64,000 nt of DNA from Myxococcota bacterium. GTDB taxonomy: Bacteria; Myxococcota_A; UBA9160; UBA6930. The position numbers and the translations under genes were made by a program. Below, piece by piece: positions 16,864 through 19,858 of this stretch (position 1 is the stretch's first letter; the number at the start of each line of letters is the position of its first letter). The stretch covers positions 62,001 to 126,000 of the forward strand of contig JANQOX010000003.1 in the NCBI GenBank assembly GCA_028285625.1, in the 5' to 3' direction. Under the pieces are notes generated by a model, which saw only the letters and a list, made by a program, of their open reading frames with translations, made no database searches and was not told the DNA's origin.

Positions 16864-17283
16864 CTAGGCCACCTCGGCGTGGCCCGCCGCACGCAGTGCG
16901 GCGCGGATCTTCTCGGCCGCATCGTCCATCATCTCGTCCGACGGGTTGGCGTCGGCCCGTGCGAAGTTCATGTCCTGCAGGCCCCAGATCGGCACCAGGT
17001 GCAGGTGCACGTGGGGAACCTCGAGTCCCGCGATCATCAGCCCCACCTTCTCGGGCTGCCAGACCTGCTGGATCGCACCACCGACCTTGTGCGCCACGTC
17101 GGTCAGGTGCGCCACCAGGTCGGGCTCGAGGTCGAGCCAGTGATCGACCTCTTCGATGGGCACCACCAGCGTGTGGCCCGGTTTGAGCGGGGCGATGGTC
17201 AAGAAGGCCACGGCGCGCTCGTCGCGCCACACGAAGCGGCCCGGCAGTTCGCCCGCGATGATCCGCGTGAAGATGGACGGCAC
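16864..17283 (-). CDS. HIT-family nucleotide hydrolase/transferase
   Basis: 139 residues from a GTG at 17283, two bases after the amidohydrolase stop. N-terminal FTRIIAGELPGRFVW and FLTIAPLKPGHTLVVP are typical of HINT-branch proteins. The histidine triad PHVHLHLVP is intact. It likely hydrolyses adenosine 5'-monophosphoramidate-type substrates. It is co-transcribed with the upstream amidohydrolase. Confidence 0.93.
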   Translation of the reverse strand: MPSIFTRIIAGELPGRFVWRDERAVAFLTIAPLKPGHTLVVPIEEVDHWLDLEPDLVAHLTDVAHKVGGAIQQVWQPEKVGLMIAGLEVPHVHLHLVPIWGLQDMNFARADANPSDEMMDDAAEKIRAALRAAGHAEVA

Positions 17284-17285
17284 GT

Positions 17286-18530
17286 CTACTCCTCGGTTCG
17301 GTCCACGAAGATCTCGCCACCACGCGTGACGAGCGCCAGGTGCTTGCCCTGGTCCATGAGGCACGAGAGGTCGTCGAGGGGGTTGCCGTCCACGAGCAGC
17401 AGGTCGGCATGGGCGCCGGGCGCGATCACGCCGAGCTCTCCCTCGCACTGCAGGATGCGGGCGTTGACGAGGGTCGCCGACCGCAGCACCTCGAGCGGGC
17501 TCAGCACCTCGGCGCGAATCCGCAGCTCTTCGCTCTGACGGTCGTGGGTCTCGCCGAGCAGGTCGGTGCCGTAGCCCATGGGCACCCCGGCATCGCGGGC
17601 GATCTCGAGCGAGCGCAGACCGCCGTCGAGCACGTCCTTGACCTTCGCCTGGCTCGCGGCCGGAAACCCGAGGGCGCGGCCGAGCTCGTCGATGGCGAAG
17701 TAGGTCACCAGCGTCGGCACCAGGAAGGCAGAGCATTCCACCATGCGCGCCGCGGTCTCGGCATCGAGCCAGTTGCCGTGCTCGATGGTGCGCACGCCGG
17801 CGTCCACGGCGCGCAGGATCGCCTCGGGCGTGTAGGCGTGGGCCATCACGTAGGTGCGCCAGCCGGCCGCCTCTTCGACGGCGGCGCGCATCTCGCCGGG
17901 GGAGTACTGGAGGTTCCAGATGGGGTCGGTGGGCGAAGCGACCCCGCCCGACGCCATGATCTTGATCTGGTTCGCGCCCCGGCGCAGTTCTTCGCGCGCG
18001 GCCTTGCGCACGGCGTCGACCCCATCGGCCACGTGCGAGAAGCCCGACGTGTGCACGCGACAGGCGCAGAGCGGCACCTCTTCTTCGCCGCGGCTGCGCA
18101 GGTCGCCGTGGCCCCCGGTCTGCGAGAGCACGCGCCCGGCGATGAACATGCGCGGCCCGGCGATGAACCCTCGGTTCACCGCTTCGGCCAGCCCCCAGTC
18201 GGCGCCGCCTGCGTCGCGCACCGTGGTGAAGCCGCGGCGCAGCATCCCCTCGAGGATGCGTCCGGCCTCGTGCGCCACCAGCGTGACGGGCTTGCTCGCC
18301 ATGCCGCCGAGATTCATCGACGTGATCACGGCATGGACGTGCGCGTCGATCAGGCCCGGCATCAGCACCCGGCCACGCGCGTCGATGTGGCGGAGGCCCT
18401 CGTGGCGCAGCGCGCCCTCGGCCACCTCGACGATGCGGTCGTCCTCCACCCGCACGCTGGTGTCGGGGCGCAGCTCGCCTCGCTCGAGATCGAGCAGCTT
18501 CGCGCCGGTGACCACGAACCCGGAAGCCAT
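17286..18530 (-). CDS. Metal-dependent amidohydrolase (prolidase-like subgroup)
   Basis: 414 residues. Amidohydrolase TIM-barrel ligands are present: PGLIDAHVHA (HxH), NQIKIMASGGV (Lys expected to be carbamylated), YVMAHAY (His), TIEHGN (His) and GYGTDLLG (Asp). The N- and C-terminal strands (VVTGAKLLDLERGELRP, HADLLLVDGNPLDDL) form the usual beta-sandwich. This subgroup includes Xaa-Pro/Xaa-Arg dipeptidases and organophosphate-acting enzymes; the true substrate is unknown. TATGGA lies six bases before the ATG, so the start is probably leaderless. It diverges from the SCP-x thiolase across 131 bp. Confidence 0.92.
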   Translation of the reverse strand: MASGFVVTGAKLLDLERGELRPDTSVRVEDDRIVEVAEGALRHEGLRHIDARGRVLMPGLIDAHVHAVITSMNLGGMASKPVTLVAHEAGRILEGMLRRGFTTVRDAGGADWGLAEAVNRGFIAGPRMFIAGRVLSQTGGHGDLRSRGEEEVPLCACRVHTSGFSHVADGVDAVRKAAREELRRGANQIKIMASGGVASPTDPIWNLQYSPGEMRAAVEEAAGWRTYVMAHAYTPEAILRAVDAGVRTIEHGNWLDAETAARMVECSAFLVPTLVTYFAIDELGRALGFPAASQAKVKDVLDGGLRSLEIARDAGVPMGYGTDLLGETHDRQSEELRIRAEVLSPLEVLRSATLVNARILQCEGELGVIAPGAHADLLLVDGNPLDDLSCLMDQGKHLALVTRGGEIFVDRTEE

Positions 18531-18542: not shown

Positions 18543-18620
18543 CCACGCCCCAACCCACGCCCCAACGGCCCAGGGCCGGCCCGAACACCGCCCCGGGTCG
18601 CCGGGGCGCGGGCCGCCCGC

Positions 18621-18626
18621 TAGATT
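18621..18626 (+). promoter_or_regulatory. Putative -10 box TAGATT for the SCP-x thiolase
   Basis: GCTAGATT fits the window's GCTAnnnT pattern. It overlaps the left arm of the palindrome 18625-18640, so a repressor bound there would cover the -10 and the start of transcription. Confidence 0.45.
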
Positions 18627-18640
18627 GACTCGCCAGTCAA
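18625..18640. promoter_or_regulatory. Palindromic operator TTGACT-CGCC-AGTCAA
   Basis: Perfect 6-bp inverted repeat with a 4-bp spacer between the divergent amidohydrolase and SCP-x thiolase genes, 22 bases before the thiolase ATG. The shape is that of a TetR-family operator, common on lipid-degradation promoters. No regulator gene is adjacent, so the repressor would act in trans. Confidence 0.6.
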
Positions 18641-18661
18641 CCCTCCGAGGAGAGCAGAGCG

Positions 18662-19858
18662 ATGGGTCGCAAGGTGTTCGTGGTCGGCGTCGGCATGACC
18701 AAGTTCGAGAAGCCCGGCAGCAAGGATTGGGACTACCCCGACATGGGCCGCGAGGCGGGCGAGAAGGCCCTGGCCGACGCAGGCATCTCCATCGAGGACG
18801 TGGACCAGGCCGCGGTCGGCTACTGCAACGGCGACTCCACGGCGGGCCAGCGCGCCTTCTACGAGCTCGGCCACCCGGGCATCCCCGTCTACAACGTGAA
18901 CAACAACTGCTCCACGGGGTCGACGGCGCTCTTCATGGCCAAGCAGTTCGTCGAGGGCGGGCTCGCCGAGTGCGCCATGGCGCTCGGCTTCGAGAAGATG
19001 GAGAAGGGCTCGCTCGGCGTGAAGTACACCGACCGCACCCTGCCCCTCGACAAGCACTTCAAGGTGATGATCGAGGCACGTGGCTTCGAGGCCAAGGCGC
19101 CCGGCGCCCCGCAGATGTTCGGCAACGCCGGCATCGAGCACATGGAGCGCTACGGCACCACCGCCGAACAGTTCGCCAAGATCGGCTGGAAGAACCACAA
19201 GCACTCGGTGAACAACCCGTACTCGCAGTTCCGCGACGAGTACACGCTCGAGCAGATCCTCGACGCGCCGACGGTGTTCGGCCCGCTCACCAAGCTGCAG
19301 TGCTGCCCGACTTCGGACGGCGGCGGCGCGGCGATCCTGGCCAGCGAGGACTTCGTGCGCAAGCACGGCCTCGAGGCCAAGGCGGTCGAGGTGCTGGGTC
19401 AGGCGATGACCACCGACTATCCGAGCTCGTTCGAGAAGAGCATGATCAAGATGGTCGGCTCGGACATGTCGAAGAACGCCGCGCAGAAGGTCTACGAGCA
19501 GTCGGGCGTCGGGCCCGAGCAGGTGGACGTGGTCGAGCTGCACGACTGCTTCAGCTGCAACGAGCTGATCACCTACGAGGCGCTCGGCCTCTGCCCCGAG
19601 GGCAAGGGCGGCGAGTTCGTCGACTCGGGCGCCCAGACCTACGGCGGCCAGGTGGTGGTGAATCCGTCGGGCGGCCTCATCAGCAAGGGCCACCCGCTGG
19701 GCGCCACGGGCCTGGCCCAGTGCGCCGAGCTCAACTGGCAGCTCCGCGGCGAAGCCGACGCCCGTCAGGTCGAGGGCGCCGAGATCGCGCTCCAGCACAA
19801 CCTGGGGCTCGGCGGCGCGGCCGTGGTCACCATGTACCGCAAGGCCGACCTCGCCTAG
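18662..19858 (+). CDS. SCP-x type thiolase / lipid-transfer protein
   Basis: 398 residues with a strong GGAGAG ribosome site. Thiolase-fold marks: N-terminal [12 protein letters not shown], nucleophile Cys in [32 protein letters not shown], and the active-site loop [18 protein letters not shown]. The lack of the standard C-terminal Cys-Gly-Gly motif and the HDCFS box place it with SCP-x thiolases and actinobacterial sterol side-chain lipid-transfer proteins. It would carry out thiolytic or aldol-type cleavage of branched acyl-CoA. Expression is probably controlled through the palindrome at 18625-18640 and ended by the hairpin at 19884. Confidence 0.93.

Follow-up and report, generated by a model that had tools for sequence, protein, structure and literature searches.

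Within the 64,000-nucleotide stretch of Myxococcota DNA analyzed here, referred to as the window, a perfect palindrome, TTGACTCGCCAGTCAA, lies on the plus strand 21 bp 5′ of the start of an SCP-x-type thiolase gene. The locus letters around it read ...GCCCGCTAGATTGACTCGCCAGTCAACCCTCCGAGGAGAGCAGAGCGATGGGTCGC..., and the coordinates of the local features are collected in Table 1. The thiolase scores 663.6 bits against the NCBIfam lipid-transfer protein model PRK08256, above the membership cut-off of 436. A divergent amidohydrolase gene lies on the other side, so that the palindrome is placed between an amidohydrolase and the thiolase, as an earlier reading made from the sequence alone (the sequence-only reading) had proposed. 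Control of the amidohydrolase by the same element is possible, and nothing in the analysis favors it. The end of the amidohydrolase gene is overlapped by a HIT-family-like open reading frame (window positions 16864-17290, minus strand), recognized by eye from an HVHLHL motif; HIT-like reading frames, also seen by eye, adjoin the thiolase gene elsewhere (L063, L183, L187, L194).

Beside the palindrome, at 18619-18626, the sequence reads GCTAGATT, and the −10 box here shares two bases with the palindrome, so the overlap with a −10-like box described in the sequence-only reading holds. The TTGACT-n4-AGTCAA palindrome itself is likewise present, while its assignment to 18621-18640 was too wide, since that interval includes the TAGA of the −10 box. 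Transcription from TAGATT would be expected to start about 7 nt downstream, within the palindrome. The complete dyad is 16 bp long, with arms of 7 and a center of 2. Operators of the TetR family are typically dyads of about 14-20 bp lying over or beside core promoter elements, and the element has both this length and this position.

Table 1. Features at the thiolase promoter, in window coordinates.
Feature	Position	Strand	Description
Divergent amidohydrolase	17286..18530	−	PF01979, 149 bits; start 94 bp from putative operator
−10 box TAGATT	18621..18626	+	overlaps first two bases of putative operator
Putative operator TTGACTCGCCAGTCAA	18625..18640	+	consensus TTGACTCnnGAGTCAA; single departure, C for G at 18634
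Shine-Dalgarno-like GAGGAG	18647..18652	+	read from sequence
SCP-x-type thiolase, presumed regulated gene	18662..19858	+	PF22691/PF00108; NCBIfam PRK08256

Taken by itself, a bare 6-n4-6 palindrome means little here, because the window, with a G + C content of 71%, contains 60 perfect examples. Arms with at least four A/T in six positions are found in 2 of these 60, and the exact word TTGACTCGCCAGTCAA appeared in none of 100 dinucleotide shuffles of the window. The proof that the palindrome is a site is a comparative one, drawn from counts of exact matches in genome sequences set against reversed controls. The exact 12-base motif TTGACTn4AGTCAA occurs three times in the genome from which the window comes (reversed pattern, 0) and 30 times across 60 genomes including this one (reversed pattern, 3). 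When up to two mismatches were allowed in the own genome, the control (23) exceeded the motif (17), so that loose matches are mostly noise and only near-exact ones are informative. A fuller consensus, TTGACTCnnGAGTCAA, was built from 31 aligned sites, oriented toward the gene where the gene was clear, and it replaces the bare TTGACT-n4-AGTCAA that had been suggested as the search word. Exact copies of this consensus number 22 and come from 15 of the 79 genomes in the order, with none for the reversed control; with at most one mismatch there are 84 sites in 36 of the 79 genomes, compared with 6 for the control. In a phylum-wide sample, exact copies were found at 16 sites in 10 of 52 genomes of the order versus one in 230 others (control, 0), which makes the site largely order-specific. 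Named records with orthologous thiolases are MAGs, mostly labeled Deltaproteobacteria or Myxococcota, with one labeled UBA9160. Searches of an open library for the motif as exact strings returned no paper containing it.

The genes that follow the sites are predominantly concerned with lipids. Gene context was collected for 78 of the 84 sites that lie within one mismatch of the consensus, and a recurrent gene family begins no more than 260 bp downstream for 59 of 71 sites in genomes that carry the FadR-like TetR gene described below, and for 1 of 7 in genomes that do not. By best match, these 60 family-linked sites precede a ChsH2-OB protein gene followed by a thiolase (15), SCP-x-type thiolases (12), acyl-CoA dehydrogenases (12), SCP2 domain genes (6), ribBA (4), amidohydrolase-3 deacylases (3), Zn alcohol dehydrogenases (3), AlkB-like oxygenases (3), and SDRs (2). 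The families were named after the sites had been inspected, and the evidential weight lies in their recurrence across different genomes. Some targets are paralogues (the L186 thiolase is 26% identical, and the L206 and L208 acyl-CoA dehydrogenases 38-39%). Representative targets carry the domains OB_ChsH2_C, SCP-2 sterol transfer, Thiolase_C_1, and Acyl-CoA_dh, along with PRK08256 lipid-transfer protein; the OB protein also has a match to BbsA, a subunit of benzoylsuccinyl-CoA thiolase, which at 51.5 bits stays under the cut-off of 250. In the own genome, six sites with at most one mismatch precede genes for SCP2, a deacylase, ChsH2, ribBA, an AlkB-like protein, and the window's thiolase. The sequence-only reading had suggested that the site could be used to find a regulon, by a genome search for the motif near lipid genes, and both points are borne out: sites matching TTGACTCnnGAGTCAA recur upstream of lipid genes in different genomes, and the motif is not absent from lipid genes other than the thiolase.

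Two of the families merit separate description. Upstream of ribBA, at 77-115 bp, the identical word TTGACACCCGAGTCAA or its reverse complement occurs in four genomes (L065, L199, L203, L216), including G006 of another genus; these sites could bring flavin supply into the regulon, or they could reflect a −35 region that has been conserved. Sites before AlkB-like 2OG-Fe(II) oxygenase genes were seen at L067:4001, L040:4001, and L044:4001 (PF09859 in L044), and in two of these three cases a divergent acyl-CoA dehydrogenase gene lies 26-31 bp away.

The window's own thiolase is a variable member of the regulon. Among 29 assessable orthologues the site is present at 11, in some cases carrying two mismatches; one more, with too short an upstream stretch, was left out. 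The orthologue in G001, a genome of the same genus, has no site; a different TetR gene (L073:2704-3504, minus) precedes it at a distance of about 10 bp, suggesting that one regulator has replaced another there. This TetR was considered as the regulator of the palindrome and rejected, the promoter beside it being without the site. Scoring of 79 of 80 named thiolase loci, partly from the same genomes, gave 16 with at least 11 of 13 and the rest with 10 or less; one of the 16, an Acidimicrobiia record, may be a chance match.

Alignment of 50 of the 60 family-linked sites, with the ribBA, AlkB-like, and distant-paralogue cases excluded, points to two arrangements on promoters. At SCP-x genes, 10 of 11 sites are accompanied by a TAnnnT box whose end falls between 2 nt inside the site and 3 nt ahead of it; in 16-base control windows located 120-450 bases away (1945 in all) such boxes have a frequency of 1.3%. 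At SCP2 genes (6 of 6 sites) and alcohol dehydrogenase genes (2 of 3) the TAnnnT box instead lies 18 nt after the first six bases, and the site therefore covers the −35 element. For acyl-CoA dehydrogenase and ChsH2 genes, inspection by eye often found the box, TATA-like or CATnnT, displaced upstream by a few more bases. By the rule of the script, 28 of the 50 aligned sites belong to neither promoter class. Positions 13-16 are unchanged in all 50, which had been preselected for no more than one mismatch. In either arrangement, a bound protein would be expected to block polymerase, as a repressor does. At two SCP2 genes (L033:3980 and L041:3980) a TAGACT box ends six bases before the start codon, and their mRNAs may be leaderless.

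These features make the palindrome look like a real, conserved repressor-binding site, common to a set of lipid-breakdown genes across many genomes that belong to a single order. The own genome has 75 TetR_N matches. One candidate, encoded at G000:C18:236276-236944 and away from the targets, was chosen from 67 HTH segments by its likeness to Bacillus FadR, before its distribution was examined. Its best sequence matches in the PDB are 1vi0, 3whb (FadR), 5gpa, and 5gp9, with E-values of 8e-23 to 1e-21. An AlphaFold2 model of the protein (pLDDT 84) gave, as its 12 best Foldseek matches in the PDB, chains of 3whb, 3whc, 5gp9, 5gpa, and 5gpc (Bacillus FadR) and of 1vi0; 3whc is a stearoyl-CoA complex. 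The TetR_N HTH domain scores 63.4 bits (cut-off 24), placing it in the TetR family, and a YsiA-like C-terminal domain, PF08359, passes at 29.6 bits (cut-off 21). Against the FadR model the candidate is the genome's best, at 110.8 bits with the next at 56, and it falls below the 200-bit cut-off of the NCBIfam equivalog NF053878 (110.7). We name it FadR-like rather than FadR because that cut-off is missed and because the operator is unlike those of Thermus and Bacillus. Orthologues were found in 42 of the 79 genomes of the order, and the recognition helix, IAYGLVYHY, is invariant in the best 30 of the 42. By eye, in L299-L328, the FadR-like gene often adjoins genes for a glycosyltransferase and for a GldA-like ABC transporter ATPase and permease, and it might serve these neighbors instead.

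The distribution of this gene follows that of the sites. Of the 42 genomes carrying the FadR-like gene, 30 have a site with at most one mismatch, versus 6 of the 37 that lack it (p 1.1e-6), and with a cut at two or more sites the association gives p 1.2e-5. Three control TetRs, L101, L122, and L102, gave p 0.04, 0.014, and 0.07 in the first test, and 0.048, 0.079, and 0.002 in the second. The profiling was confined to four of the 75 TetRs, the candidate and these three controls, and the Fisher tests ignore shared ancestry. A separate panel was assembled from all 29 genomes with a detected OB-thiolase, in which 150 bp upstream of the ChsH2 gene were scored using a matrix built from 27 sites that all lie outside ChsH2 promoters (training minimum 22.1), and a stretch was called a site when it beat all 200 mononucleotide shuffles. 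On this panel, again with shared ancestry uncorrected, all 22 genomes that have the FadR-like gene show a site, as does 1 of the 7 that lack it (p 1.5e-5); the control TetRs give p 0.17, 0.31, and 0.55. Ten of the 22 positives reach 22.1 and the other 12 have diverged, with scores from 1.6 to 21.3; in six of the 7 genomes without the gene the scores, −10.4 to −15.9, do not exceed those of shuffled sequence. The exception, G059 (score 19.4), is without the FadR-like gene and has diverged sites at both ChsH2 and SCP-x; it is a MAG of 77% completeness, and its genus mate G051 has the gene. Five further genomes with both the gene and a ChsH2 site (G032, G042, G046, G065, G068) were excluded from the count, since the site had picked them. 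In the order as a whole, sites within one mismatch are missing from 12 of the 42 genomes that carry the gene; 7 of them have orthologues 45-53% identical, 4 have a diverged ChsH2 site, and G049 has neither. In genomes that lack the gene, 8 sites occur, spread over 6 of 37; of the 7 sites inspected one precedes a lipid gene, in G035, a genome that is 85% complete.

The sequence-only reading had postulated an acyl-CoA-sensing TetR repressor encoded elsewhere. An unlinked FadR-like TetR that co-occurs with the sites agrees with this, and homology suggests its acyl-CoA ligand and its binding to the sites. A link between the motif and TetR genes was a further check that the reading had proposed. 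The candidate's own gene has no operator upstream in the best 30 of its 42 orthologues, where the top score was 9.5 of 13. Upstream regions of the TetR genes of the own genome (67 distinct segments from the 75 matches) gave nothing convincing when scored for the site. Among the site loci, a home-made TetR profile picked up only two TetR genes, one on contig C11 next to a two-mismatch site and the other toward the distal end of L197, over 4 kb away from the site. At the first of these, TAGACTGACCAGTCAG lies at G000:C11:47415-47430 (L013/L101), before the TetR gene C11:47434 and two mismatches from the 12-base motif, and it is perhaps the autoregulatory operator of that TetR, with related half-sites. 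As a regulator of the palindrome, the C11:47434 TetR was set aside by its distribution across genomes. An FNR-type reading of the palindrome, TTGATn4ATCAA, was rejected too, as its spacing is two bases shorter.

The palindrome is probably governed by a fatty-acid-sensing TetR encoded elsewhere in the genome. By analogy with the FadR family, we infer binding as a dimer, repression, and release by long-chain acyl-CoA. Stated in full, the account that we regard as likely is that of a lipid-catabolism operator, used in one order, which is bound by the FadR-like TetR and released by long-chain or sterol-like acyl-CoA. A dimer of the FadR-like TetR would bind TTGACTCnnGAGTCAA. At the SCP-x, acyl-CoA dehydrogenase, and ChsH2 promoters the site lies just downstream of a −10-like box, over the expected transcription start, and at SCP2 and alcohol dehydrogenase promoters over the −35 element; the repressor bound at either position would block RNA polymerase. 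Accumulating long-chain or sterol-like acyl-CoA would then occupy the C-terminal pocket and release the repressor, switching on the thiolases, acyl-CoA dehydrogenases, SCP2 carrier, and their companions. The list of targets leans toward SCP-x/ChsH2/SCP2 chemistry, and the ligand could be either a fatty or a sterol-type acyl-CoA. A bolder version, which we put forward tentatively and consider doubtful, is that of an order-wide global lipid repressor with the operator code TTGACTCnnGAGTCAA. It would have arisen from a FadR-type ancestor to govern a sterol/branched-chain-style set (SCP-x, ChsH2-OB, SCP2, acyl-CoA dehydrogenase, SDR), it may also adjust the supply of flavin through ribBA, and it would sense a bulky or sterol side-chain acyl-CoA rather than an ordinary fatty one.

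Different explanations can be proposed for parts of these observations. A chance palindrome with no function at the window locus would fit the abundance of 6-n4-6 palindromes in the window, the siteless orthologue in the same genus, and the SCP-x panel, which taken alone is not significant (p 0.11). We find this scarcely credible, given that the exact word is absent from 100 shuffles, that 10 other orthologous promoters carry the site, and that the same word, within one mismatch, stands before other lipid genes of the own genome; on these sequence comparisons, chance is refuted for the regulon as a whole. The palindrome could instead be a promoter element, a −35 box of the form TTGACN with a fortuitous inverted repeat, and no operator at all. 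The left arm does lie at −35 distance from TAnnnT at SCP2 and alcohol dehydrogenase genes, some departures there turn it into TTGACA or TTGACG, and the ribBA sites are one word in four genomes. Such an element is nonetheless very improbable. The SCP-x sites follow the −10 box, a place in which a −35 box could have no effect; conservation extends to the right arm (positions 13-16 in all of the preselected sites); and the ChsH2 promoter lacks the site in six of seven genomes without the regulator.

The identity of the regulator is the point at which an alternative has more substance. The operator may be real and recognized by another of the 75 TetRs, or by a MarR, CRP/FNR, or GntR protein, with the FadR-like gene merely co-distributed. 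Dyads of such length occur in several regulator families, and the profiling covered TetRs alone. The candidate has no autoregulatory site in the 30 orthologues examined among 42, the C11:47434 TetR is preceded by the related TAGACTGACCAGTCAG, and control TetRs are weakly associated with the sites too (0.014-0.07, and 0.002 for L102 at two or more sites). Against this, orthologues of C11:47434 fail on the ChsH2 panel, where sites are found in 13 of 14 genomes with them and 10 of 15 without (p 0.17), and the candidate, picked before any distribution was known, went on to split the same panel 22/22 to 1/7. The targets also fit the role of a FadR. We therefore judge a different regulator to be unlikely, and prefer the FadR-like TetR.

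Comparison with known systems places this candidate among TetR-type regulators of lipid metabolism. KstR and KstR2, which control sterol catabolism in mycobacteria, are TetR proteins too, and their target types include ChsH2, lipid-transfer thiolases, and acyl-CoA dehydrogenases. KstR2 appears among the fold matches of the candidate at rank 15, whereas KstR is less similar to it, with a model score of 30.9 bits for a cut-off of 280, and the operators differ. Bacillus FadR (YsiA) is likewise a TetR repressor and is the nearest solved relative by both sequence and fold. Its operator, TGAATGAnTAnTCATTCA, differs from the consensus found here, TTGACTCnnGAGTCAA, and the targets here include the SCP-x thiolase, ChsH2-OB/thiolase, and SCP2.

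In PMC6449355, Bacillus FadR is described as providing acyl-CoA-dependent control of beta-oxidation, and FadR of Sulfolobus acidocaldarius as a TetR protein with a 16-bp dyad, few genomic sites, and DNA binding that is disrupted by acyl-CoA. The Sulfolobus protein shares the 16-bp dyad with our system, although it is archaeal and its binding extends to its own gene's control region. For the TetR protein FadR of Thermus thermophilus (TTHA0101), PMC5597230 gives the consensus TTRNACYNRGTNYAA, tested as TTGGACTTAGTCCAA. This resembles the half-site here and is the nearest published motif encountered, while the Thermus site is 15 bp with a 1-nt center and that of the order 16 bp with a 2-nt center. 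Thermus FadR is absent from the candidate's four PDB matches below E 1e-15. In Proteobacteria, PsrA, FadP, and LiuR, regulators of fatty-acid or branched-chain acyl-CoA catabolism, have been studied by comparative genomics; PMC5343134 reports Deltaproteobacterial orthologues for only five of the regulators that it covers, and its excerpted text names no such motif. The system in this order appears FadR-like, working in the manner of the TetR-type FadR regulons of Bacillus, Thermus, and Sulfolobus, with a distinct operator of its own.

A single palindrome leads to a testable regulon, comprising a defined operator, a candidate repressor, and a list of genes, for bacteria represented here by metagenome assemblies. 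It offers a new operator for the TetR/FadR recognition code, together with an invariant recognition helix to match. The shared sites also provide evidence of co-regulation, which indicates that the SCP-x thiolase, ChsH2-like thiolase, SCP2, and particular acyl-CoA dehydrogenases act together in these organisms.
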